DNA of 41,520 nt, taken from NCBI GenBank assembly GCA_024682655.1, contig JAIKYZ010000082.1:1-41520 (forward strand). Reading direction: 5' to 3'. The notes below the pieces were generated by a model. The model saw only the letters and a list, made by a program, of their open reading frames with translations, was not told the DNA's origin and made no database searches. Numbering within the stretch: position 1 is the stretch's first letter; each line of letters starts with the position of its first letter. Positions 18,442 through 38,326 of the stretch are shown here, one piece after another. Both the position numbers and the translations under genes were made by a program. This DNA is from Treponema sp. Lineage in GTDB: Bacteria; Spirochaetota; Spirochaetia; Treponematales; Treponemataceae.

Positions 18442-19761
18442 TTATCTAAAAAGTACGTTGTTTACAACTTCTTCAAGATATTCCTGACGTCCAGAACCTG
18501 GTAAATCAGGCTTTTTCATCTGACAGGCATGGTCAGAAAGTTCTTTAAGACTTGTCTTCTTTGCACGAATCTTTTTACCAATTTCTGTTTTTTCAAAACT
18601 TGAGTATTTTTCTTTTATAAAGTCATCAATTCTACCGTCTTCAATAAGTTCGGCAGCCTTAATAAGTCCAAGAGCAAAAGTATCCATACCAAGAATATAT
18701 GCATGGAACATATCTTCATAAGTATAAGAAGGACGGCGGTTTTTAGAGTCAAAGTTAAATCCACCTGTTACTCCACCAGCCTTTAATACTTCGTACATGG
18801 CCATTGTTGCATCATAAACATTGCAAGGGAATTCATCTGTATCCCAGCCAAGTAATGGATCACCCTGGTTTGCATCAATTGAACCTAACATTCCATTGAT
18901 TGCAGAAATTCTTAATTCATGCTGGAAAGTATGTTGGGCTAAAGTAGCGTGGTTTGCTTCAATATTCATCTTAAAATCTTTATCAAGACCATACTGACGC
19001 AAGAAACCAATAGCAGTTGCAGCATCAAAATCATACTGGTGCTTCATTGGCTCCTTTGGCTTTGGTTCAATATAGAAGTCCCCTTTGAATCCAATGCTGC
19101 GGCCATAATCAACAGCCATGTGCATAAGATTTGCAATATTTTCCTGTTCAAATTTTACATCTGTATTTAAAAGTGTTTCGTAACCTTCGCGGCCACCCCA
19201 GAAAACATAGCCACGGCCACCTAATTTTACTGTTATATCAAGAGCTTTTTTTACCTGAGCTGCGGCAAAACAATAAACATCTGCTGAGTTTGTAGAACCA
19301 GCTCCGTTCATAAAGCGTGGGTTACCAAACATATTTGCTGTACCCCAAAGACACTTAATGTCAGTTCCCTTAGTTTTTTCAAGAATGTAATCAGAAATTT
19401 CGTCAAGGCGTTTATTTGTTTCGTTGATATCATCAGCTTCTGGAACTAAATCAACATCATGCCAGCAGTAGTATTTAATTCCCAATTTTTTCATGAATTC
19501 AATACCGGCATCTACTTTGGCCTTTGCATGTTCCATTGTACCAGGGGTCTGTCCAAAAGATTTATCAGCTGTACCACGACCAAACATATCAACACCATTG
19601 GCTCCCAAATTGTGCCACCAGGCCATAGCAAAAGGAAGGTGTTCTTCCATAGTTTTGCCCATCAATCTTAATTCAGGATTGTAATACTTAAAAGCAAATG
19701 GATTATTACTTTTTTTTCCCTCATATTTAATTTCAGGAATATTTTTGAAAAATTCGCTCAT
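18442..19761 (-). CDS. xylA: Xylose isomerase
   Basis: 439 residues, the length of class II xylose isomerases, with the family's motifs in order. YYCWHDVDL gives catalytic His101 and Asp104; [33 protein letters not shown] and DANQGD supply the two-metal-site Glu, Asp and His residues. One small oddity is LAQHTF where LAGHTF is usual. It converts D-xylose to D-xylulose in the cytoplasm (also glucose to fructose). AGGAGG lies nine bases before the ATG at 19761. No xylulokinase gene lies beside it. The promoter has two GTTAG-N6-CTAAC operators placed for repression, so it is likely inducible. Confidence 0.97.
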
Positions 19762-20569: not shown

Positions 20570-22489
20570 ATGGACTTAGCTGAAATAGATGAAAATGGTA
20601 AGGGTTTATTATTTTTTGGTGACACAAAAGTCGATATAGTAAAAAAAATCGATGGTCAGCCAAATGTATATTTTTTACAGACAAGTTTTGAACTTGAAAG
20701 AAAAGAACAGGTAACTCCAAAAGCTGGACAGTTCTACCTTCTTAAAAGTAAAAAATCCAATGTAAATTACAATCGACCAATCAGCGTTTATCATGCTGAA
20801 GACAAAATCAATAGTAAGGGTAAAAAAGAAATTACCGTCCAATTTATGATTTTGGAAAAGGGCCAGGGTACAATAGAACTTTGCCATATGAATCCAGGAG
20901 AAGAAATGGTTCTTATTGGACCACTTGGAACTCCATGGCCAGAAGCCGACAAAGAACTTTTAAAATCAAAAAGCCCAAAAATTGCTATTGTAGGCGGAGG
21001 AATTGGAGTAGCACCAGTTGCAAATCTTGCTTCTACCCTACCCCAGGGCTCTTATGATTTTTACGCATCATTTAAATCTGGCTCTTATGGTTTGGAAAAT
21101 GTAAAAGCCGCAAATCTTAAAATCACAACTGATGATGGTTCTGTTGGAATTCATGGAATGTTACCTGCAGCCTTTTCTGAAGAAGCAATAAAAGAAGCCG
21201 GCTATGAATTAATTTATGCTTGTGGACCTACACCTGCACTTGCCTATGTAAAAAATGTTGCAGAAAAACTTGGAATTAAATGCTGGATAAGTATGGAACA
21301 CAGAATGCTCTGTGGTTTGGGTGCTTGTCTTGGCTGTATGATAGAAACTAAAGAAGGCCTAAAACGCTGTTGTAAAGACGGGCCTGTTTTTGATGCAGCA
21401 ATTCTTGAATTTCCTAAACCACCTGCCCGTCGTAAACCTCTTGAAAAAGATGAAGAACCAGATATTTCTACCCAAATTGCGGGAATTAAATTTAAAAATC
21501 CGGTAATCGCCTCAGCGGGAACTTTTGCCTATGGACAGAATTTTAGGGGCGTTGCTGATGTTAGTGACTGGGGCGGCATCTGTTCCAAGGGAATTACCTA
21601 TGAGCCAAGGGTTGGTAACAAGGGAGAAAGAAGCCTTGAAGTTGCCGGTGGAAATATGAATTCAATCGGTTTACAAAACCCTGGAGTTCCTTATTTTATA
21701 GAAAACCTTTTACCTGGAATGCTGGGACTTGGACCTGTAACAATTGCAAATCTTGCCGGAAGTGATATTGAATCTTATGTAGAAGGTGCAAAACTTCTGG
21801 ATAAAACAGATGTTGATATGATTGAATTAAACATTTCTTGTCCAAACATTAAAGCGGCTGGCCTTGCCTGGGGAATGAGTGCCGAAACCGCTTACTATTG
21901 TGTAAGTTCAGTTCGCGTAGCCACAAAAAAGCCTCTTATGGTAAAACTTAGCCCAAATGCACCTGACAATAGACCAATCGCCCTGGCCTGTATTAAAGCC
22001 GGTGCCGATGCAATCAGTATGATTAATATGATTCACGGAGTTGCAATTGATATTGATAAGGGAAAACCTTTCTTTAACAATGTCCACGCAGGATATTCTG
22101 GCCCTGGATTAAAACCTCTGGCCCTTAGAATTGTTTACGATGTAATAGAAGAAATCAATAAACTTCCACCAGAAGAAAGAGTACCTGTAATTGGAATTGG
22201 TGGTATTACAAACTGGAAAGACGCCGTAGAATTTATTATGGCAGGTTGTACAGCAGTAGAAATTGGTCAGGCTAAATTTACAAATCCTAAAGTTGCCCTG
22301 GACATTCAAAATGGACTCAAAGAATTTATGAAATCTCACGGATATCATAATCTTGAAGAAATGAGGGGAATTGCCCAGGTAAAACATCAAAATGAACTTG
22401 GTTCAGGTAACGAAAAAGCCCATTACAAAGAATTAAAAGATATGGTTTTAAGTTATCTTCCAGTTTTGCCAAATTCAAGACAAAAATAA
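20570..22489 (+). CDS. Dihydroorotate dehydrogenase: fused PyrK electron-transfer and PyrD catalytic domains
   Basis: 639 residues. Residues 15-285 are PyrK-like: an FAD-binding barrel (NYNRPISVY), a pyridine-nucleotide domain (IAIVGGGIGVAPV) and a [2Fe-2S] site with Cys248, 253, 256 and 267/268 (CGLGACLGC). Residues 300-635 are class 1B PyrD: an FMN-binding barrel with NSIGLQNPG, ELNISCPN carrying the catalytic Cys424, and VIGIGGI. In Firmicutes these are two polypeptides that form a heterotetramer using NAD+. Here the joint is a short Pro/Lys/Glu linker with no internal start. The enzyme oxidises dihydroorotate to orotate in pyrimidine synthesis. An operator-like palindrome sits at the promoter. 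The start is preceded by TGGAG. Confidence 0.95.
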   Translation: MDLAEIDENGKGLLFFGDTKVDIVKKIDGQPNVYFLQTSFELERKEQVTPKAGQFYLLKSKKSNVNYNRPISVYHAEDKINSKGKKEITVQFMILEKGQGTIELCHMNPGEEMVLIGPLGTPWPEADKELLKSKSPKIAIVGGGIGVAPVANLASTLPQGSYDFYASFKSGSYGLENVKAANLKITTDDGSVGIHGMLPAAFSEEAIKEAGYELIYACGPTPALAYVKNVAEKLGIKCWISMEHRMLCGLGACLGCMIETKEGLKRCCKDGPVFDAAILEFPKPPARRKPLEKDEEPDISTQIAGIKFKNPVIASAGTFAYGQNFRGVADVSDWGGICSKGITYEPRVGNKGERSLEVAGGNMNSIGLQNPGVPYFIENLLPGMLGLGPVTIANLAGSDIESYVEGAKLLDKTDVDMIELNISCPNIKAAGLAWGMSAETAYYCVSSVRVATKKPLMVKLSPNAPDNRPIALACIKAGADAISMINMIHGVAIDIDKGKPFFNNVHAGYSGPGLKPLALRIVYDVIEEINKLPPEERVPVIGIGGITNWKDAVEFIMAGCTAVEIGQAKFTNPKVALDIQNGLKEFMKSHGYHNLEEMRGIAQVKHQNELGSGNEKAHYKELKDMVLSYLPVLPNSRQK

Positions 22490-25825: not shown

Positions 25826-27988
25826 ATGAAAATTATTAAACGTAATGGTGAAGAAGCAATTTTCGATGTACAAAAAATTATCAATGCTATCGAAAAGGCA
25901 AATGCTGCAGTTCCAGAAACAGACCGCATTTCAGAGGCTTATATTCAGGCCGTATCAGCAAAAGTAAAAGATGCTTGTTACGCAAGTAAAGTTGAAATGA
26001 ACGTAGAAGCAATTCAGGATCTTGTTGAAACAGAATTAATGCGCATTGGAGCCTTTCACATTGCCCGTGCTTACATCACTTATCGTTACCGTCACGCACT
26101 TATGCGTAAACAAAATTCTACAGACCAGCAGATTCTTTCTTTACTTGAATGTGCCAACGAAGAAGTAAAACAGGAAAATTCAAATAAAAACGCTACAGTT
26201 GTTTCTGTTCAGCGTGATTATATGGCTGGTGAAGTTTCTAAAGATATCACACGCCGTTTTCTTTTAGATGAAGACATTGTAAATGCTCATAACGAAGGAA
26301 TTATCCACTTCCACGATGCAGATTACTTTGCTCAGCACATGCACAACTGTGACCTTGTAAACCTGGAAGATATGTTACAGAACGGTACTGTAATTTCTGG
26401 AACAAAAATCGATACTCCTCACTCTTTCTCTACAGCTTGTAATATTGCAACACAGATTATTGCACAGGTTGCCTCAAGTCAGTACGGTGGACAGTCAATT
26501 TCTTTGACTCACCTTGCTCCTTTTGTAGACGTTAGCCGTAAAAAGTTAATAAGAGAACTCAATAAAACTGTTGAGGAAACAGGAGTTACTTTTACAAAAG
26601 AACAATTTGACACAATTGTAGAACGCCGTCTTGCAGATGAAATTACTCGTGGTGTTCAGACAATTCAGTATCAGGTTGTAACTCTTATGACAACAAATGG
26701 TCAGTCTCCATTTGTAACAGTATTTATGTACTTAAACGAAGCTCGTAATGAACAGGAAAAAGCTGACCTTGCCCTTATTATTGAAGAAGTACTTAAACAG
26801 CGCTACAAGGGTGTAAGAAATGAAGCAGGCTACTGGGTAACTCCAGCCTTCCCAAAACTTATTTATGTACTTGAACCAGATAACATCGAAGAAGGTTCAA
26901 AATACTATTACCTTACAGAACTAGCTGCAAAATGTACTGCAAAACGTCTTGTACCAGATTATATTTCAGAAAAGAAAATGTTCGAACTTAAGGAAGGAAA
27001 CTGCTATACCTGTATGGGCTGCCGTTCATTCCTTACAGTTTACCGCGACGAAACTGGAAAACCAAAGTTCTACGGTCGTTTCAACCAGGGTGTTGTAACT
27101 CTCAACCTTGTAGATATTGCCTGTTCAAGTGGCCGTGACATTGATAAATTCTGGAAGATTTTTGATGAACGCTTAAATATCTGTTACAGAGCCCTTATGG
27201 CCCGTCACAATCGTCTTATGGGAACTCCATCTGACGTTGCCCCAATTCTCTGGCAGAATGGTGCACTTGCCCGCCTAAAGAAGGGTGAAACAATCGATAA
27301 ACTTTTATTCGGTGGATATTCAACAATTTCTTTGGGATATGCAGGTCTTTGTGAATGTGTTCGTTATATGACTGGTAAACCTCATACAGACCCTTCTGCA
27401 ACTCCATTTGCTCTTGAAATTATGAGACATTTAAACGATGCATGTAAAGAATGGAAAGCAAAAGAAAATATGGACTTCTCACTTTATGGAACTCCACTCG
27501 AATCAACAACTTACAAATTTGCAAAGTGTTTAAAGAGACGTTTTGGTGAAATTCCGGGGGTTACAGACAGAAATTACATTACAAACAGCTATCACGTTCA
27601 CGTAACAGAAGATATTGATGCTTTCTCTAAACTTACTTTTGAAAGCCAGTTCCAGGAACTTAGTCCAGGTGGTGCAATTTCTTACGTAGAAGTTCCAAAT
27701 ATGGAAAACAATATTCCAGCAGTTATGGCTCTTCTTAAACATATTTACGAAAATATTATGTATGCAGAGTTAAATACAAAATCTGACTGCTGCCAATGTT
27801 GTGGTTATACAGGCGAAATTCAGGTAGTTGAAGATGAAGACGGTAAATTAATCTGGAAGTGTCCACAGTGTGGAAATACTGATCAGAGTAAGATGAATGT
27901 TGCCCGAAGAACTTGTGGTTACATTGGAACTCAATTCTGGAATCAGGGTAGAACTCAGGAAATTAAGGAAAGAGTTTTACACCTCTAA
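25826..27988 (+). CDS. nrdD: Anaerobic ribonucleoside-triphosphate reductase
   Basis: 720 residues. Residues 1-95 are an ATP-cone (MKIIKRNGEEAIFDVQKI) for allosteric control. The central part has HNEGIIHFHDADYF and GNCYTCMGCRSF with active-site cysteines. Near the C-terminus, CCQCCGYTGE and WKCPQCGN form a zinc site. RRTCGYIGTQFW carries the glycyl radical at Gly698. The enzyme makes deoxynucleotides without oxygen and needs activation by the radical-SAM protein encoded just downstream. NrdR-type boxes precede the gene. GGGTGGG-type sequence serves as a weak ribosome-binding site. Confidence 0.97.
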   Translation: MKIIKRNGEEAIFDVQKIINAIEKANAAVPETDRISEAYIQAVSAKVKDACYASKVEMNVEAIQDLVETELMRIGAFHIARAYITYRYRHALMRKQNSTDQQILSLLECANEEVKQENSNKNATVVSVQRDYMAGEVSKDITRRFLLDEDIVNAHNEGIIHFHDADYFAQHMHNCDLVNLEDMLQNGTVISGTKIDTPHSFSTACNIATQIIAQVASSQYGGQSISLTHLAPFVDVSRKKLIRELNKTVEETGVTFTKEQFDTIVERRLADEITRGVQTIQYQVVTLMTTNGQSPFVTVFMYLNEARNEQEKADLALIIEEVLKQRYKGVRNEAGYWVTPAFPKLIYVLEPDNIEEGSKYYYLTELAAKCTAKRLVPDYISEKKMFELKEGNCYTCMGCRSFLTVYRDETGKPKFYGRFNQGVVTLNLVDIACSSGRDIDKFWKIFDERLNICYRALMARHNRLMGTPSDVAPILWQNGALARLKKGETIDKLLFGGYSTISLGYAGLCECVRYMTGKPHTDPSATPFALEIMRHLNDACKEWKAKENMDFSLYGTPLESTTYKFAKCLKRRFGEIPGVTDRNYITNSYHVHVTEDIDAFSKLTFESQFQELSPGGAISYVEVPNMENNIPAVMALLKHIYENIMYAELNTKSDCCQCCGYTGEIQVVEDEDGKLIWKCPQCGNTDQSKMNVARRTCGYIGTQFWNQGRTQEIKERVLHL

Positions 27989-28009
27989 TAAAAATGCAAA
28001 TTTTACAGT

Positions 28010-28038
28010 CCCGTGTTTTATGGCACGGGATTTTTTTT
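28010..28038 (+). terminator. Terminator-like hairpin between nrdD and nrdG
   Basis: CCCGTG (28010-28015) pairs with CACGGG (28024-28029), followed by A and eight T. It lies between the two genes of one functional unit, so partial read-through would give fewer activase than reductase transcripts. Confidence 0.8.
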
Positions 28039-28049
28039 CGGAGACACAG

Positions 28050-28544
28050 ATGTATTATGGAAATATTAAAAGTTTTGATGTAGCAGACGGGCTTGGAGTT
28101 AGAGTTTCGCTTTTTGTGAGTGGATGCAGAAACTGCTGTCCAGGATGTTTTAACGAGGCTACCTGGGATTTTAATTATGGCCAGGAATTTACAAAAGAGA
28201 CAGAAGATAAAATCCTTGAACTCTTAAAACCCTCTCACATTCAGGGCTTTTCTTTACTGGGCGGAGAACCCTTTGAAGAAGAAAATCAGGAAGTTCTGGC
28301 CCCTTTTCTTGAAAGAATTAAAACAAGCTATCCAAATAAAGACATCTGGTGCTGGACCGGCTATATTTTGGAAAAAGACCTGCTCCAAGGTGGCCGAAAA
28401 AATACTCCATACACAAAAAGAATGCTTTCCTGCATAGATACACTAATAGACGGGCCTTTTATTCAAAGCCAGAAAAATCTTATGTTAGAATTCCGAGGTT
28501 CTGAAAATCAAAGAATCTTAAAACTTAGGGAAATGGGCTTGTAA
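28050..28544 (+). CDS. nrdG: Anaerobic ribonucleotide reductase activating protein (radical SAM)
   Basis: 164 residues from the ATG at 28050, with GGAG seven bases upstream; longer in-frame readings run back into nrdD and are not credible. The radical SAM motif is Cx3Cx2C in SGCRNCCPGCFN. LLGGEPFEEEN is the G-G-E-P SAM-binding motif, and DTLIDGPFI is typical of NrdG. It uses SAM and a 4Fe-4S cluster to create the glycyl radical of NrdD. It starts 61 bp after nrdD across a terminator-like hairpin. Confidence 0.95.
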   Translation: MYYGNIKSFDVADGLGVRVSLFVSGCRNCCPGCFNEATWDFNYGQEFTKETEDKILELLKPSHIQGFSLLGGEPFEEENQEVLAPFLERIKTSYPNKDIWCWTGYILEKDLLQGGRKNTPYTKRMLSCIDTLIDGPFIQSQKNLMLEFRGSENQRILKLREMGL

Positions 28545-28554
28545 TAAATTCAGA

Positions 28555-30705
28555 TTAAATATTACCTTCTGCAATCTGTCGTCTATAATATTCCAGGAAT
28601 ACTTCTTGAGACATAGGAGCCTTAAAATAATAGCCCTGAATCATATCGCAGTTGTAGTTTCTTAAGTAATCTAACTGTTCTTTTGTTTCTACGCCTTCTG
28701 CAACAACCATAAGCTCTTTTAAGTGGGCTAATTCCAGAATATGGCGCAAAAGTTCATTTCCACCAGGTTCACCAATATAATCAATAAGAGATTTATCCAG
28801 TTTCAATTCATCAAAGGGAAGAATATTAAGGATTTCCATAGAGGAAAGTCCACTTCCAAAATCATCCATATGAATTTTAAAGCCTACTTCTTTTAAATTC
28901 TGAGACAATTCTTTTATCTGTTTATTTTTTGTAGAACTTGTTTCTGTAATTTCAAGAGGTATATATTCAATTGGAATTCCTCTTTCCTGAATAATTGCCT
29001 TATATCTTTCAATCATTCCTTTATGGTAGAGGGAATTTCTAGAAAGATTTACAGAAATAGGAACAATCTTTAAACCTTCATCCATAATAAATTTTACAGT
29101 ATCGCAAACTTTTGTAAAAACAAATTCATCAAGTCTTACAATTAAACCGTCATTTTCAAATACATAAATAAATTCAGAAGGAGCAATAACTCCATCATCT
29201 TTTACCCAGCGAACCAAAGCTTCTGCCCCAACCATTTTTTCTGTAAATGAATCAAATTTTGGCTGAAACCAAACCTTAAACTGATTTGTTTTAATTGCAT
29301 TTTCAAAGGCAGATTCAAACATCTGTTCCTTTATTAATTTCTTTGCAAAATTACCATTATAAGATTCGACCACCTTATCGTAATTATGAAGAACAGACTT
29401 AGCAGCCTGCAAAGCACGGTCACAAATTAAATTTACAGGAAGGCTTTTATCTACATCACCATAAAAACCATACTTTACAACAACATTTTTTATTGGAGCA
29501 TTGTTTATTGCAATTGCAGTCTGATTCTTAAGATATTCTTTTCCCTGATTATTTTCTGAAGGGAAAACAGTAACAAACTGGTCTCCACCGTACCTTGCAC
29601 TAATTCCCTTTGGTCCCCTTTCTTCAAATTCCTTAGCAAAATATTTTAAAAACTCATCACACTTTTCTTTTCCGTACACACTATTTAAGAACTTAAAGTG
29701 TTCAATATCTGCAACTAGAACATCGTAAGAAGAATAAGCATGATCTTTAAAGAGTTTTTCTACAGTTGTATAGAAAGCATCTCTAGAAAGAATACCAGTC
29801 AGAGGATCATGTTTTATCATATGGTAAACAATGGCATTTTCAATCTGACTAAAAATTACAAGACCATTTACAACAAAAAATAAAAGAATAACAATAAGAA
29901 ATTCAAGTAAGCTATCTCTTAAATTAAACCATCCATCAACAGGTTCAACAGCCAGATACCAGTCATCACCTGGAAGTTCAATCTTAACAACAACATTTTC
30001 TGAAATAGATTTATTTACGTTTGAATATATATAACCATTTTCATCACTAATATTGTATTCATCAAAATCTTTCCATACTGCAAAATGATAATTGTTTAAT
30101 GAAGGATATAAACTTGTTGTTACATTTCTTTTAAATACTTCCCAGTTTACAACAGCAATTGAAAAACCTCTGAATTTTCTGTCAGTAAAAGCAGGATTTC
30201 TTATGATAAGACCAGTACCACCTTCAATCAGATTCAAAGGGCCTGCTACAATTATACTTTGCTCTTCAATAGCTCTCAGGGCATCTTTCTGCTGTTCAGG
30301 ATCGTTTAACATATCAAAACCGATAGTTGATTCATAAACTGACTTGGGATAAGCTCTGGAAACAATTCCATTTGGAGCAAGATACAAAGACCCCATTGTT
30401 TTTATATCACGGATTAATATTTCACCAAGAACTTCAAAATCTCTATAAAATACATCATCATACTTTATATATAAATTTTTAAGGACCCCTGTAGAATCAA
30501 TACTTTTATTCAATTCAACAGTAATATTTGTCTTGATACTTTCAGCAAAAAGTTTTGCTGCATCTTCTTTTTCATTAATTATACGTTGTCGAATAGAAAT
30601 CAAAACAAAGTTAGCAACTACAAGACTAATCATTCCAACAATAGTTATGAGGCCTTTTTGAGTTCGAGACATTTTAATTTTGCTACCATTTTTTCTATTA
30701 ATCAT
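28555..30705 (-). CDS. CHASE-GGDEF-EAL cyclic-di-GMP protein, probably a phosphodiesterase
   Basis: 716 residues from the ATG at 30705, which follows AGAGAG; an ATG nine codons upstream has no well-spaced site. A membrane helix near 20-40 is followed by a periplasmic CHASE-like sensor (SLYLAPNGIVSRAYPKS, IVAGPLNLIEGGTGLIIRNP) and a second helix near 265-285. The GGDEF domain reads RYGGDQF, so the catalytic Glu is Gln and cyclase activity is doubtful. The EAL domain is complete: AEALVRW, EITET, MDDFGSG, LKLD and AEGVET. The likely net activity is cyclic-di-GMP hydrolysis gated by an external signal, with the degenerate GGDEF binding GTP. It is the leftward neighbour of the iteron array. Confidence 0.92.
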   Translation of the reverse strand: MINRKNGSKIKMSRTQKGLITIVGMISLVVANFVLISIRQRIINEKEDAAKLFAESIKTNITVELNKSIDSTGVLKNLYIKYDDVFYRDFEVLGEILIRDIKTMGSLYLAPNGIVSRAYPKSVYESTIGFDMLNDPEQQKDALRAIEEQSIIVAGPLNLIEGGTGLIIRNPAFTDRKFRGFSIAVVNWEVFKRNVTTSLYPSLNNYHFAVWKDFDEYNISDENGYIYSNVNKSISENVVVKIELPGDDWYLAVEPVDGWFNLRDSLLEFLIVILLFFVVNGLVIFSQIENAIVYHMIKHDPLTGILSRDAFYTTVEKLFKDHAYSSYDVLVADIEHFKFLNSVYGKEKCDEFLKYFAKEFEERGPKGISARYGGDQFVTVFPSENNQGKEYLKNQTAIAINNAPIKNVVVKYGFYGDVDKSLPVNLICDRALQAAKSVLHNYDKVVESYNGNFAKKLIKEQMFESAFENAIKTNQFKVWFQPKFDSFTEKMVGAEALVRWVKDDGVIAPSEFIYVFENDGLIVRLDEFVFTKVCDTVKFIMDEGLKIVPISVNLSRNSLYHKGMIERYKAIIQERGIPIEYIPLEITETSSTKNKQIKELSQNLKEVGFKIHMDDFGSGLSSMEILNILPFDELKLDKSLIDYIGEPGGNELLRHILELAHLKELMVVAEGVETKEQLDYLRNYNCDMIQGYYFKAPMSQEVFLEYYRRQIAEGNI

Positions 30706-30779
30706 AAGCACTCTCTTTATCTTATTAATCATATCCTATAATTTCCGATTTTGTTATTGACTTTCATTTTTAACAAATA

Positions 30780-30837: not shown

Positions 30838-31315
30838 CGACTACTAATATCCACCTGAACTAAAAGCTTTAGGGTTATGACTACCAATATCCACTGTTTA
30901 AATTTATAGACAGAATTTTGAATGACTACCAAAGTCCATTTTTCAATTTGTATGAATTTTTAAACACTTTCTTTGGACTTAGGTAGTCGTAAACTATCCT
31001 TTTTTGGGATTTTTGGACTTAAGTAGTCGTTAGTCTATGGACTTTGGTAGTCGACTACTAATATCCACCCTTCCCTACCCTAAAAAGGTGATTGGCCGTC
31101 TAAAAAATTCAAAAGAACTACCAAGGTCCACAAATTCTGTCTACAAAGTTCGGAAAGCAGAAAAGACTACCAATATCCACCTTAATATGTTTAAAATTTT
31201 AAACTGTGGATTTAGGTAGTCGTAGAAAAGATGGACTTTAGTAGTCGTAATTTCTAATAGTAGAGATAATAAAGTTAAATACAGGGATTTTGATTTTCTT
31301 GGATATTGGTAGTCG
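30838..31315. repeat. Iteron array 1: twelve copies in +++---+++--- order
   Basis: Consensus GACTAC-Y-N-A-W-R-TCCAC. Plus copies start at 30838, 30878, 30923; minus copies 30974-30989, 31014-31029, 31038-31053; plus copies 31052, 31116, 31164; minus copies 31207-31222, 31232-31247, 31300-31315. The sixth and seventh meet back to back at GTCGAC (31050-31055). Spacing is irregular. The array lies just past the stop of the Rep gene, so it is the likely initiator-binding part of a replication origin. TATCCAC in several copies also resembles part of a DnaA box. Confidence 0.88.
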
Positions 31316-31325
31316 TAAGTCCAGC

Positions 31326-32303
31326 CTACTCCAGACCCATTTCTTTTAATTTTTCAAGAATTCTATAATTATTCAGATCTCCAAAATCAAATGGGAGTTC
31401 CTGCTGTCTATTAATTATTTCTTCAGCTTCGGCCCACTCTTTTGGATATTTTTCTTTGTAATAATTGACTTCCAGTAATTCAGAATTTATTTCTTCTTTT
31501 TCGTCTATTTCTTCTTGAGAATCAGTATTTGCAATCTTAAGGATTTCAGTTTGAACGCAGGTAAAATTAAAGGCAACAGTTTTATGATTTTCCATTACCT
31601 TTTGATATGATATCTGGAAATTCTTATTTACACTGTTTAATTCCTCCAGAGGATTCTTTATTACCTTTGTGATGAAATTATTCATTCTGTCTTTATAGGC
31701 ATCTTTGTCAATTTTGAACATTGTTTTTATTGCATCAACATTCAGAGTAAAAGTCCAGGTATTTGCAGCGTTTCCATAACGGCCTTTCATGTTGTAATAA
31801 GAATTAGCAATTTCAAAAAATCTTAAAGCATAAAAAGACTGCAGTTCTCCAATAGTTTTAATATTCATTGCAGAAAACTGTTTTATCTCTTTCCACTCAA
31901 TAATTGCCATTCCAATCTGCTGATTAAATTCAAGTTCAATAAGATCTTTTTCCTTGTCGTAAGAAGCATAAGAAAACCAGGTATAGGCTTTATATTTTTC
32001 TTCAGTATTTTCAACCTGAATTACCGAAGTTGATAATTCTTCTACAGCTCTTTTTACCTGTTTATAGGTATTTGCACCTTTTGAGATTCCTAATTTATTG
32101 ATTGCTTCAGAAATAGAAAAAGTAGATTTAAAATGATGTAGTTTTATATTTTCATTTAAGGTGTTTTCTGGATAGTGATCTATTTTTAAAATACAATAAG
32201 CTATTAATTTTCTTGCTAATGGACTACAAGTATAAATTCCACGACTTATGGCATTAGACTGAATAACTATTTCTTTGTCTTTTATAGCCGTTAATTTGTT
32301 CAT
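31326..32303 (-). CDS. Plasmid replication initiator, Rep_3 family
   Basis: 325 residues. The N-terminal IVIQSNAISRGIYTCSPLARKLIAYCI matches the opening of Rep_3/RepB-type initiators (L-s-x-x-x-r-K-L-x-x-x-x-I). A first winged helix is followed by FYALRFFEIANSYYN and WTFTLNVDAIKTMFKI, the A/Y-x-R-x-Y/F-E region and second winged helix that binds iterons. The C-terminal 60 residues are acidic and probably loosely ordered. The protein would bind the flanking GACTAC...TCCAC repeats to open the origin and, as a dimer, repress its own gene. Start at 32303 has AGGGA upstream. Confidence 0.92.
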   Translation of the reverse strand: MNKLTAIKDKEIVIQSNAISRGIYTCSPLARKLIAYCILKIDHYPENTLNENIKLHHFKSTFSISEAINKLGISKGANTYKQVKRAVEELSTSVIQVENTEEKYKAYTWFSYASYDKEKDLIELEFNQQIGMAIIEWKEIKQFSAMNIKTIGELQSFYALRFFEIANSYYNMKGRYGNAANTWTFTLNVDAIKTMFKIDKDAYKDRMNNFITKVIKNPLEELNSVNKNFQISYQKVMENHKTVAFNFTCVQTEILKIANTDSQEEIDEKEEINSELLEVNYYKEKYPKEWAEAEEIINRQQELPFDFGDLNNYRILEKLKEMGLE

Positions 32304-32370
32304 TTTCCCTGTAATCCTAATTTTAAATTTCTTTTTTGGTGGAAGGAATTTTATAAATTTAATTAATTAT

Positions 32371-32398
32371 TATTTAACAGCGCTGTAAGTCTTTGTAA
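32371..32398 (-). promoter_or_regulatory. rep promoter with a palindromic operator
   Basis: On the minus strand TTACAA (32398-32393), 16 bp, TAAATA (32376-32371). The perfect 10-bp palindrome ACAGCGCTGT (32377-32386) lies in the spacer directly next to the -10. A plausible autorepression site that differs from the iterons. Confidence 0.45.
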
Positions 32399-32422
32399 TA
32401 TAATAAATTAACATCCCCAATT

Positions 32423-32754
32423 GCTACTAAAGTCCACTTTTTCAACTACTAAAGTCCAAAAAGCTGCTACTTTTGTCCACCCTTACGACTACCGACATCC
32501 TTTTTACCGGATAAGAAGTTAATCGACTACTTAGATAATAACATGGGTAGTTGATAAATTCAACTGAAGTGGAAAAATTTATTGATAAGTATATTTTCTG
32601 AAAGGATTTTGTAAACTTTGTTAATTAATTTTTACTTTATTGAGTTTTATTTGTCTAGGATTTTTTTTTGCGACTACTTAAGTCCACCGTAATTTTTGCC
32701 AGATGACTACCAAGGTCCACTATTTTCCTAAAAAAAAGACTACCGAAGTCCACT
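32423..32754 (+). repeat. Iteron array 2, seven plus-strand copies upstream of rep
   Basis: Copies at 32423, 32444, 32466, 32486, 32671, 32704 and 32738, all in plus orientation. The first four are degenerate (for example GCTACTTTTGTCCACC and CGACTACCGACATCC) and the last three are good. A partial copy (CGACTACTTAGATA) starts at 32524. An AT-rich gap of about 150 bp separates the two groups. This could be the incompatibility or handcuffing locus that partners array 1. Confidence 0.82.
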
Positions 32755-32770
32755 AATTGCCCGGTAGTCT
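32731..32770 (-). terminator. parA-operon terminator built from an iteron
   Basis: On the minus strand AGACTACCG (32770-32762) pairs with CGGTAGTCT (32745-32737), followed by seven T. The second arm is the GACTAC half of the iteron at 32738. It lies 23 bp after the stop of the small DNA-binding gene. Confidence 0.85.
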
Positions 32771-32792
32771 TATATCTTAAGAAATTTTATTT

Positions 32793-33116
32793 TTAATCAT
32801 CACTATTCCGTATTTCTACAAGTCCGCCTTTATTTAACCTGTATTTATTTGTCATAACATCATTCATAAGATGGGCCATTGCAATTTCAATTCCCTGGGT
32901 TGTATTTAAATCATGTTCAATAAAAAATTGTTTCCAGGCCTTTCTTGTAGATTCTTTTACCAGCATTGTAAGGTGAACTGGTTTTTCCTGTCTTTCTTCA
33001 ACGAATTTTTCTGCAGGTGGAGTACTTTTTTTTGAAACTCCTGTATTCATTAAATCGCCAAAAACATCTGTATTTCCTGCTAATTCATCGGCTGTGATTG
33101 TTTTTTTAGAAGCCAT
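32793..33116 (-). CDS. Small partition/copy-control DNA-binding protein, ribbon-helix-helix-like
   Basis: 107 residues. Residues 1-45 are polar and probably flexible, as in the N-terminal arms that stimulate ParA ATPase. Residues 46-85 (VHLTMLVKESTRKAWKQFFIEHDLNTTQGIEIAMAHLM) have the strand-helix-helix pattern of MetJ/Arc/CopG dimers. It follows parA by 12 bp and has AGGAGG upstream. This order (ParA then a small partner) is standard for plasmid partition. The partner would bind a centromere; TAGGTATA-type clusters upstream of parA are candidates. Called by pattern and context. Confidence 0.72.
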   Translation of the reverse strand: MASKKTITADELAGNTDVFGDLMNTGVSKKSTPPAEKFVEERQEKPVHLTMLVKESTRKAWKQFFIEHDLNTTQGIEIAMAHLMNDVMTNKYRLNKGGLVEIRNSDD

Positions 33117-33128
33117 TCAGTGTTCCTC

Positions 33129-33887
33129 CTACTTTAAGTCTTTTGCAAGTTCTGCAAGGGTTTCAAGAGTTTCTTTTTTTGTACCGCTGAATTCCTGAAT
33201 TGTGATATGAGCACTCTGGGCTTTTCTATATGCCTGGTCTACTGGAATTACATAAAGTTTATAACCATGGTCTTCCAGAGGTTTGAATTGCTGCAGGATA
33301 ATTGACTGCTGGGCTATACGGTCATCTTTTGCGTTAAATACAATTTTGTTGAAAAGAGGTCTTGGATCATCTTCATCAAGATTGTCGTTTATAAAAGTCT
33401 TAAGTCTGTCATTAAAAATCTGAAGTCCGTCTTTAGAAAATTCATCCAGCTGAAGAACTGCTATGATTTCATTTGTTGCATAAAAAATTGAACGTTCAAA
33501 ATTTCCAAAAGAGGGTGATGTATCAATTACACAGTAGTCATAATTTTTTGCAACTTCTTTTAAGGTCTTTTTGATTTTTCCCTGATTTCCGCCAGCCTTG
33601 TTTTCGCTGTATTCCTTGAGGTCTCCGCCTAATCCTGCTGTAGGAATTATCGAAAGATTTTTGATACTTGAATCAATAAGACAATTTTCTAAAGTACATC
33701 TTCCGTTAAGAAGATCTGCGAATTCATAAGTCATTGTCTGTATTCCAAGCCAGGTTGTTGCGTTGCCCTGAGGGTCTGCATCTATAAAAATTGTCTTTCC
33801 AATTTTTGATAATTCAACGGCTAAAGATACGGCTGTTGAGGTTTTTCCTACCCCACCCTTCTGTAAAGCAACTGTGATGATTTTCAT
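33129..33887 (-). CDS. parA: ParA-family partition ATPase
   Basis: 252 residues from the ATG at 33887, which has AGGAGG immediately upstream; a longer reading frame runs back into the three-hairpin repeat and is rejected. The deviant Walker A is KGGVGKTS with the signature first Lys; FIDADPQGNAT is Walker A', and YCVIDTSPS is Walker B. No N-terminal DNA-binding domain precedes the motif, so it is of the short type, where the partner protein does the repression. It drives segregation of the replicon by forming gradients on the nucleoid. The three-hairpin repeat copy B abuts its ribosome-binding site. Confidence 0.95.
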   Translation of the reverse strand: MKIITVALQKGGVGKTSTAVSLAVELSKIGKTIFIDADPQGNATTWLGIQTMTYEFADLLNGRCTLENCLIDSSIKNLSIIPTAGLGGDLKEYSENKAGGNQGKIKKTLKEVAKNYDYCVIDTSPSFGNFERSIFYATNEIIAVLQLDEFSKDGLQIFNDRLKTFINDNLDEDDPRPLFNKIVFNAKDDRIAQQSIILQQFKPLEDHGYKLYVIPVDQAYRKAQSAHITIQEFSGTKKETLETLAELAKDLK

Positions 33888-33900
33888 AAAAATTCCTCCT

Positions 33901-34020
33901 TTAAAATCAAATACCGCAGGTTGTTTCAACAACCGAGGATATTTGATTCGCAATATAAGAGTTTCGCAAGAAACTCTAAATTAAATGAATGGCGATATTT
34001 TAGCCATTCAATTTAAACCT
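33901..34020. repeat. Three-hairpin repeat, copy B, abutting the parA ribosome-binding site
   Basis: Same element as at 221, differing by one deletion and one substitution at the base of the third hairpin. It ends exactly where the parA Shine-Dalgarno begins (33891-33900). If the parA transcript starts upstream, its 5' leader would contain all three hairpins. Confidence 0.9.
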
Positions 34021-34083
34021 CCCAAAAATATGCTTTTTTAATTTCTTAGTTTTTAACAGTATAAAATATTTTACAAAAAAAAT

Positions 34084-34210
34084 CTATACCTATATACCTA
34101 AATTATTATTATAAATATACCAAAGTACCGCGCGAATAGGTAAAAGAATTATATAAAACTAGGTAGAAAATATATATAAAAATACCGCAATACCGCAAAG
34201 ATAGGTATAA
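34084..34210. repeat. Left cluster of ATACC/ACCGC repeats, candidate partition site
   Basis: ATACCTATATACCTA (34086-34100) is the exact reverse complement of TAGGTATATAGGTAT at 35063 and 35140. ATACCGCAATACC (34182-34194) is the exact reverse complement of 35150-35162. Also ACCGCGCG near 34127. It could be a centromere for the ParA system. Binding is inferred only from position and repetition. Confidence 0.5.
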
Positions 34211-34707
34211 AATAAAACAGGCCCTAGGATTGATTTTGACGCGTTTTATCCCTTTTTCCGGGGTAATTATTCAATTTTGTCAAAAGACCCCCTTTTTTTT
34301 GAAGATTTGGAAAAATTGAAATTACTGGAATTTTAACTGGGAAAAGCCTTTGTCTTTAAAGTGTTTTTTACAGCTTTTCTCATTTTAATCCTTCAGTAAG
34401 GTTATTTTTGATTTTACTCTGCTTATTAGGATTTTTTTACTTTATTGATTGGGCTTATTGATTTTGTGTTTTATGTGGGAAAAGAAATTTTAGGGCTCTT
34501 TATTTTTAATTGTGAAGAAAATTATTTTGAATTAAATCCCCCTGTTATAATTATTTTTCTTTTCACCATTGCTTATGTGATTTTACAGGTAAAAGAGACT
34601 TGAGGTCTTTCTCATTTAATTTTTTTACCACATCTGAAATTTTCCTGGACCTTGAGAAAATCTGGGCCTTTATTTATTTTCCAGACTTAACAGCTGTGAA
34701 GCATAAA
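34211..34707. other. Non-coding AT-rich stretch in the replicon
   Basis: About 500 bp between the left repeat cluster and repeat copy C. It has T-rich tracts and the phrase TTTTATGTGGGAAAAG-like segments, but no ORF, no iteron and no clear hairpin. It may simply be the AT-rich part of the partition or origin region. Confidence 0.5.
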
Positions 34708-34825
34708 TAAAATCAAATACCGCAGGTTGTTTCAACAACCGAGGATATTTGATTTGCAATATAAGAGTTTCGCAAGAAACTCTAAGTTAAATTGAATGGC
34801 GATATTTCAGCCATTCAATTTAAAC
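34708..34825. repeat. Three-hairpin repeat, copy C
   Basis: Third copy, same orientation as the others, with two substitutions: T for C after the first stem and C for T in the loop of the third stem. It lies between the two inverted TAGGTATA clusters, near their axis of symmetry. Confidence 0.9.
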
Positions 34826-35060
34826 ATTTTTTAATTTTTTAGTATGGGGTTTTAATTTAATTTACAGTTTCTAATTTTATTTTAAATATCCCTGTCCTCA
34901 ATTTTTATTTAAACCCTTGCTGGCTGGATATTTTTTCGGGAAGAAAAATCAATTTTTTATTGGCACACTTTTTGCTGATATTTATTTTTTCAGATTATTT
35001 GATTAAGATTTGTAATTGTCCGAGGTAGAGAATATATCTTGTTCTGATTTTTATATTTAG

Positions 35061-35175
35061 AATAGGTATATAGGTATAACGGTAAATAGGTATATACCGC
35101 CAAAATAAGTAAAATATAAGTAAAGTTAATATATAAACTTAGGTATATAGGTATTGCGGTATAAAATACCGGTTA
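35061..35175. repeat. Right cluster of GGTATA/GCGGT repeats, candidate partition site
   Basis: TAGGTATATAGGTAT occurs exactly at 35063-35077 and 35140-35154, with further GGTATA, GGTAAA and TATACCGC units between. Inverted with respect to 34084-34210, the two clusters being symmetrical about roughly 34.62 kb. Confidence 0.5.
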
Positions 35176-35224
35176 AAATACAGTTAAAAATCCACGAAGC
35201 TCCTTTTTTGATAGAGTAGGGGAG

Positions 35225-35240
35225 TGGACTTAGGGAGTCG
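35225..35240 (-). promoter_or_regulatory. Single iteron overlapping the ribosome-binding site of the HD gene
   Basis: TGGACTTAGGGAGTCG is an iteron read on the minus strand with one change (GGTAG to GGGAG). The change creates AGGGAG, the only good Shine-Dalgarno for the ATG at 35246. An initiator bound here could cover the start of this gene. Confidence 0.65.
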
Positions 35241-35245
35241 TAACT

Positions 35246-38310: not shown

Positions 38311-38326
38311 TGGATATTGGTAGTCG
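38311..38326 (-). promoter_or_regulatory. Single iteron upstream of the metQ-like gene
   Basis: TGGATATTGGTAGTCG is identical to the iteron at 31300-31315. It lies 3 kb outside the replicon module and 58 bp upstream of the -35 of the metQ-like gene. Confidence 0.75.

Follow-up and report, generated by a model that had tools for sequence, protein, structure and literature searches.

A 4.4-kb module (30,838–35,245) on contig JAIKYZ010000082.1 of Treponema sp. (assembly GCA_024682655.1) combines an intact Rep_3 initiator and iterons with a ParA partition system, and probably provides the replication origin and segregation site for a circular, chromid-like second replicon rather than being the relic of a plasmid lodged in a chromosome. 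The window, that is the whole stretch of DNA analysed, is one entire contig of 41,520 bp (C84 of genome G000) from a 2.74-Mb genome in 151 contigs. A preliminary description of this DNA had listed a Rep_3 initiator, ParA, a small partition partner, two iteron arrays and centromere-like clusters within 4.4 kb, and all of these were confirmed by Pfam searches, by alignment in the case of the partner, and by repeat counts against shuffled sequence. On the minus strand the order is parA, the gene of a 107-residue partner, iteron array 2, rep and iteron array 1.

The rep gene (31,326–32,303, minus strand) encodes a protein of 325 residues that matched PF01051 (E = 1.5e-21) and PF21205 (E = 4.6e-07), and is an intact Rep_3 initiator with two winged-helix domains (WH1 and WH2). 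Its predicted structure, of modest confidence (mean predicted local distance difference test score, pLDDT, of 63.7), matched RepE (2z9o, E = 1.9e-08, template modeling (TM) scores of 0.29/0.38) and also Pi (2nra). A search of viral contigs with Rep confirmed nothing. Rep at ≥70% identity was present in 7 of 200 genomes of the genus, its own genome counted; the six named relatives of the protein are all Treponema, and the frame was open and free of stop codons in every one of them. Strains JC4 and C6A8 and those of the RUG and RUI series are, as we take from their names, rumen-derived.

The iteron GACTACNNANRTCCA had 15 exact matches in the window, all intergenic, versus none on average in 8 block shuffles. 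Array 1, 3′ of rep (30,839–31,314), holds 12 copies with ≤1 mismatch in both orientations, and array 2, 5′ of rep (32,422–32,752, plus strand), holds 6 copies with ≤2 mismatches and is likely the origin as well as the rep operator. The same motif adjoins rep in all six relatives. Beyond the arrays, a motif search located a single iteron with 1 mismatch just before the gene of an HD_3-domain protein (35,225–35,239, minus strand) and an orphan exact, intergenic copy before an NlpA lipoprotein gene (38,311–38,325, minus strand). For the orphan iterons on replicons of relatives, the reading as a conserved regulatory site was dropped because the copies outside the module in RUG517, JC4, C6A8 and G004 fall within predicted open reading frames (ORFs). 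A second Rep_3 module was observed on another contig of the same genome (C34, 26 kb), with its own parA and partner and a Rep 33% identical to that of the window; C34 is likely a second extra replicon.

The parA gene (33,129–33,890, minus strand) encodes an ATPase with the motif KGGVGKT that matched PF13614 (E = 1.5e-34) and Soj/ParA chains. Judged from its sequence, it has a deviant Walker A motif and no N-terminal DNA-binding extension, as in type I partition systems with a small ParA. The ATG at 33,890 is the likely start; the TTG at 33,953 is disfavoured because the extension would enter a repeat of the host at 33,902–34,018. Relative to the nearest relative, the independent metagenome-assembled genome L017 (95% identity in Rep), the ratio of nonsynonymous to synonymous substitutions (dN/dS) was 0.04 (Rep), 0.024 (ParA) and 0.29 (partner), which indicates strong purifying selection on Rep and ParA. 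A type-A ParA was detected in five of the six Rep relatives. The decay of rep or parA in close relatives that the preliminary description had considered was thus not found.

The partner (107 residues, 32,793–33,116, minus strand) is likely a centromere-binding protein. It had no Pfam match and aligned with genes adjoining related rep genes (12 alignments). Its model contains two helices at high pLDDT, with a predicted ribbon-helix-helix-like C-terminus; the match to CopG reached a TMt of 0.77 but an E of 2.9, and none had E ≤0.001, so that naming the fold was rejected as resting on too weak a structural match. Two candidate centromere clusters lie 5′ of parA, one with TACCTA and GCGGTAT words (34,041–34,240) and one with TAGGTATA and CGGTA words (35,021–35,220). 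Words of the TACCTA/TACCG type numbered 8 in 160 bp near 34,061–34,240 and 9 near 35,021–35,220, against at most 4 in any of 30 shuffles, and such words were present 5′ of parA in five type-A loci.

A conserved element, ACGCGTC-N6-AATYCTAG, lies 5′ of parA (34,224–34,244, minus strand). A genus-wide pattern search found 22 exact copies, spread over 18 of 196 genomes, and the reversed control pattern gave 1. In 21 of 21 testable copies a ParA hit in the same direction started about 150–340 bp downstream; the 22nd copy is too near a contig end. The distance to parA was longest in the window (334 bp), where the gap holds one copy of a 117-bp host repeat. The element accompanied modules of all three initiator types (type-A Rep_3, type-B Rep_3, RepA_C). 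Not every module carries it in this form: the copy in L017 is a variant, and the own module of genome G024 has a partial match, as seen by eye.

The 117-bp repeat in this gap (33,902–34,018, plus strand) forms three hairpins and has further window copies at 222–339 and 34,708–34,825. It was rejected as part of the replicon because 44 listed copies, some of them in tandem, lie across the whole genome at 93–100% identity; the 3 copies in the window match at 97–100%, and many other contigs of the genome carry copies too. Its dispersal had been taken as a sign of long co-residence, a conclusion that does not hold, since the repeat says nothing on the age of the replicon and only fits residence in this host.

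Of the two options left by the preliminary description, a chromid or megaplasmid and a plasmid captured by a chromosome, the former is favoured by a closing circle in G024 that carries four genes of the window, by the skew step in relatives and by the location of the host's own dnaA on another contig (C26). In relatives the module lies on long contigs (JC4 C3, 194 kb; RUG517 C6, 153 kb; C6A8 C11, 98 kb; RUI232 C28, 62 kb). Those of JC4, C6A8 and RUG517 share 28–51 reciprocal best hits pairwise (counted here and below at ≥55% identity), and therefore represent one replicon with shuffled gene order. Contig C19 of G024 (123,654 bp) was reached via nrdD at 95% identity; its reciprocal best hits to the window are nrdD (95%), xylA (about 88–89%), pyrKD (87%) and nrdG (83%), and it also has a relative of the GGDEF-EAL gene at 46%. 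Joining its ends directly created one exporter ORF of 800 codons (641 and 158 codons plus a codon restored at the join), whereas the same procedure with seven other contigs gave ≤181 codons. The homologues of the split exporter in JC4 and C6A8, located on the Rep contigs, place the two halves one codon apart, as the join predicts. Because one gene is split exactly across its ends, C19 closes into a circle; as a circle predicts, its skew is lowest at the rep-par module (about 100 kb) and highest at about 54 kb. Terminal overlap was not found at the ends of the window or of 10 other contigs and contig pieces, C19 included; C19 alone closes, through its split gene.

Rfam gave no rRNA match on the window (the location of the genome's own rRNA genes was not searched), nor on JC4 C3, C6A8 C11 or RUG517 C6 (first 120 kb), where a cobalamin riboswitch on RUG517 C6 was the sole match on the contigs scanned. 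Placement of the window in a chromosome with dnaA and rRNA operons, raised in the preliminary description, thus finds no support in these data. No tRNA was detected in the window, JC4 C3, C6A8 C11, RUG517 C6, the first 60 kb of RUI232 C28, G004 C7, JC4 C12 or G024 C19. Near the rep-par module we also observed a gene for a UmuC-like translesion polymerase (JC4 C3, 131,155–132,543; C6A8 C11, 13,295–14,683; RUG517 C6, 95,228–96,616), with a PF00817 match in JC4 and orthologues in C6A8 and RUG517; UmuC-like short ORFs were noticed by eye near the module of G024.

The GC skew of seven relative contigs was ranked by the size of the step, expressed as G−C per kb with 40-kb arms. The largest step lay ≤2 kb from the module in RUG517 C6 (50.3), C6A8 C11 (32.2), RUI232 C28 (33.3), G004 C7 (60.5), JC4 C12 (58.5) and G024 C19 (74.9), and about 8 kb off the module in JC4 C3 (45.6). 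Control stretches bearing dnaA (RUG517, G004, G024) gave steps of 60–73 within 6 kb of dnaA, and two control stretches without an origin gave 18 and −8. With comparable steps near dnaA and at the module, RUG517, G004 and G024 therefore each have two such places. A shuffle-based change-point test with free site was run on JC4 C3, RUG517 C6, C6A8 C11, RUI232 C28, the window and the host's C34, and gave p = 0.001 for JC4 C3 and RUG517 C6. The cumulative skew of the window has its minimum at kb 34, at the module. For C34, where rep is near the contig end, the skew was not significant (p = 0.37).

A number of results weigh against a separate replicon with its origin at the module. The window contig is itself open and no longer than 41.5 kb; its free-site test (p = 0.19) preferred a change at kb 7 over one at the module, and its fixed-site test gave p = 0.14. 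In C6A8 the free change point fell at kb 35 (p = 0.04), though the cumulative minimum coincides with the module; in RUI232 the free test gave p = 0.115, and the skew reaches only about zero on the short right arm; for G004 C7, JC4 C12 and G024 C19 the skew evidence consists of the step ranking. No exact DnaA box TTATNCACA occurs in 30,838–35,245, where a diverged box would escape, and DnaA-box-like sites in the window (49 versus 53 expected) are not enriched; a DnaA box is common in the origins of iteron replicons, but not universal. The candidate centromere words are missing 5′ of parA in RUI232. Beyond rep, the partner and parA, pyrKD is the only gene (≥55%) that the window has in common with the replicons of JC4 and C6A8. 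The absence of tRNA genes lends little support because the dnaA control stretches (79–120 kb) had none either, nor had 120 kb of RUG517 C9.

Some of these results would suit a plasmid rep-par module captured by the main chromosome, with the metabolic genes as ordinary chromosomal neighbours, namely the non-significant skew test with its change point at kb 7 and the unclosed contig. The same explanation can draw on the position of nrdD, which in RUG517 and G004 shares a contig with dnaA, and on a plasmid-type ParA inside the single-contig, 2.74-Mb genome G043 (C1, 773,829–774,569). We nevertheless regard capture as improbable, since four of the same genes are on the closing circle of G024, no more than 2 kb separate the module from the largest skew step in all relative contigs ranked but JC4 C3 (about 8 kb), Rep and ParA are under strong purifying selection, and dnaA is on another contig of the host. 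The ParA of G043 is, by reading, near gpsA- and ffh-like genes, with no Rep relative in the 40-kb stretch around it, and may be a truly captured element. That the contig is a chimera, or a plasmid of another organism placed in the wrong bin, is conceivable for a genome in 151 contigs, but very improbable: L017 keeps the order nrdD-nrdG-EAL-rep-partner-parA, a check that covers the nrd side of the module, and the 117-bp repeat ties the window to many other contigs of this host. The GC content of the window (33.3%) is close to the 33.5–35.4% in 20-kb samples of three other contigs of the host, a likeness in composition that also suits a chromid.

The second replicon proposed here does not seem to keep to one initiator family. 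The initiator of G024 C19 is RepA_C (PF04796, E = 2e-08), not Rep_3. In RUI232 C28 (48,143–52,159) a Rep_3 gene with iterons has a RepA_C gene 890 bp away on the same strand; this RepA_C is 70% identical to that of G024 and comes with a partner and ParA of its own, the type-A Rep lacks the type-A ParA and partner, and between the two initiators two repeat sets abut, as seen by eye. RUG517 C6, with a type-A Rep_3 (74% identical to that of the window), and G004 C7, with a type-B Rep_3 (37%), share 64 reciprocal best hits, many at 90–100% identity, in long collinear runs. JC4 has type-A and type-B Rep on separate contigs, and RUG517 C6 carries 9 genes matching JC4 C12 at ≥55%. Probably the replicon persisted while its initiator was exchanged, two replicons having fused and one starter then having been lost, and RUI232, where both initiators adjoin, resembles an intermediate. 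As an observation apart, the adjoining initiators of RUI232 may constitute a natural double origin.

The same distribution might arise without any exchange of initiators, if a cargo block (xylA, pyrKD, nrdDG) had moved between unrelated plasmids of different species. This is consistent with the location of nrdD and pyrKD, which varies among relatives between replicon contigs and other contigs, and for the comparison of the window with G024 C19 it stands because only four genes are shared as reciprocal best hits. On balance we consider it less likely than exchange, since RUG517 C6 and G004 C7 differ in initiator branch yet share 64 genes and long collinear runs, RUI232 holds both initiators with abutting repeat sets, and a GGDEF-EAL gene follows the initiator both in the window and in G024, there with a small ORF between.

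The metabolic genes beside the module comprise xylA for the use of xylose (18,442–19,761, minus strand), a pyrK-pyrD fusion (20,570–22,489, plus strand), nrdD for anaerobic ribonucleotide reductase (25,826–27,988, plus strand) and nrdG for its activating enzyme (27,897–28,544, plus strand), with the GGDEF-EAL gene directly downstream of rep (28,555–30,732, minus strand). The nrdD family of the window was found in 42 of 59 genomes of the genus, and in RUG517 (C8) and G004 (C4) the gene is on the contig that bears dnaA. The host has a second anaerobic ribonucleotide reductase on C122 (NCBIfam PRK08270) and a pyrKD paralogue on C145. Two pyrKD paralogues stand in tandem in RUG517 (C9, 10,822–14,617) and G004 (C2, 73,828–77,607), but in JC4, C6A8 and the genome of the window one is on the Rep contig and the other elsewhere. 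The xylA gene, of which no further copy was found in the host, occurred in 3 of 11 genomes searched (the host and two at 55% identity) and is accessory. The search for copies in other genomes proposed in the preliminary description thus retrieved nrdD on dnaA contigs and pyrKD paralogues, some in tandem; its claim of important metabolism is only partly borne out, given the nrdD and pyrKD paralogues and the accessory xylA. The label chromid-like is therefore fair, whereas essential would claim too much.

With the iteron plasmids of the mini-F RepE and R6K Pi type the window shares a Rep_3 protein with WH1 and WH2 and iterons on both sides of rep. It differs from them in its own iteron, its own par operon with a conserved 5′ element, the lack of DnaA-box enrichment and the lack of a sequence match of Rep among solved structures. 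A Rep_3 initiator 34% identical to that of the window is found on Treponema saccharophilum pTSrrn (NZ_AP025291). This plasmid is described as 8.4 kb in size and of high copy number, as bearing the only rrn operon and as lacking a partition system (PMC10645730). The window, in contrast, has a par system and no rRNA, and pTSrrn is without the window's iterons at ≤1 mismatch.

Large plasmids are known from T. saccharophilum (pTS1, 424 kb; pTS2, 382 kb) and Treponema succinifaciens (pTRESU01, 166 kb), so that the preliminary statement that such replicons are uncommon for spirochaetes of this type needs correction. The ParA of the window is 47% identical to that of pTS2, 36% to that of pTS1 and 40% to that of pTRESU01. 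In these three plasmids parA is followed by a small gene and then, next or one further, by a longer gene, which scores as RepA_C in pTRESU01 and not as Rep_3 in pTS2 and pTS1. None of the three was among the best 15 of 174 matches for pyrKD, the best 8 of 127 for nrdD or the best 8 of 180 for xylA.

Circular second replicons of about 90–190 kb with metabolic genes are described for rumen Butyrivibrio (chromids BhuII, 92 kb, and BPc2; PMC5716241). The replicon proposed here resembles them as a second replicon with metabolic genes and differs in belonging to another phylum. The best plasmid match of the window's nrdD is on the 361-kb NC_014389 of Butyrivibrio proteoclasticus (60.7% identity). 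Spirochaetota are counted among the phyla with chromids in PMC12456017, from the main text of which the word Treponema is absent. Among the titles and abstract openings listed in searches of the literature, neither a chromid in rumen Treponema nor an exchange series like that of RUG517, RUI232, G024 and G004 was found described.

In the working that we propose, Rep would bind both iteron arrays flanking rep and open AT-rich DNA there, and bidirectional replication would then start at the arrays. Array 2, 5′ of rep, likely would also let Rep repress its own synthesis. ParA and the partner would move the replicon via the two repeat clusters 5′ of parA.

Replication modules are known to be exchanged among plasmids at large, and the initiator is a common basis for typing plasmid-like second replicons. 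It is possible, though we hold it only tentatively and at somewhat less than even chances, that the genus keeps a long-lived second chromosome with a replaceable starter (Rep_3 of type A or B, or RepA_C) and a double-origin intermediate in RUI232, in which the parA-linked element recurs with all three starters and segregation, not initiation, defines identity. If the initiator family indeed changes while the genes stay, typing by initiator would give a wrong picture of how old and how closely related second chromosomes are, and RUG517, RUI232, G024 and G004 would form a natural series for studying initiator change. Genes such as nrdD-nrdG share a contig with dnaA in certain relatives but belong to a probable second replicon in others, and the parA-linked element provides a short sequence marker for locating such modules in fragmented metagenome genomes.

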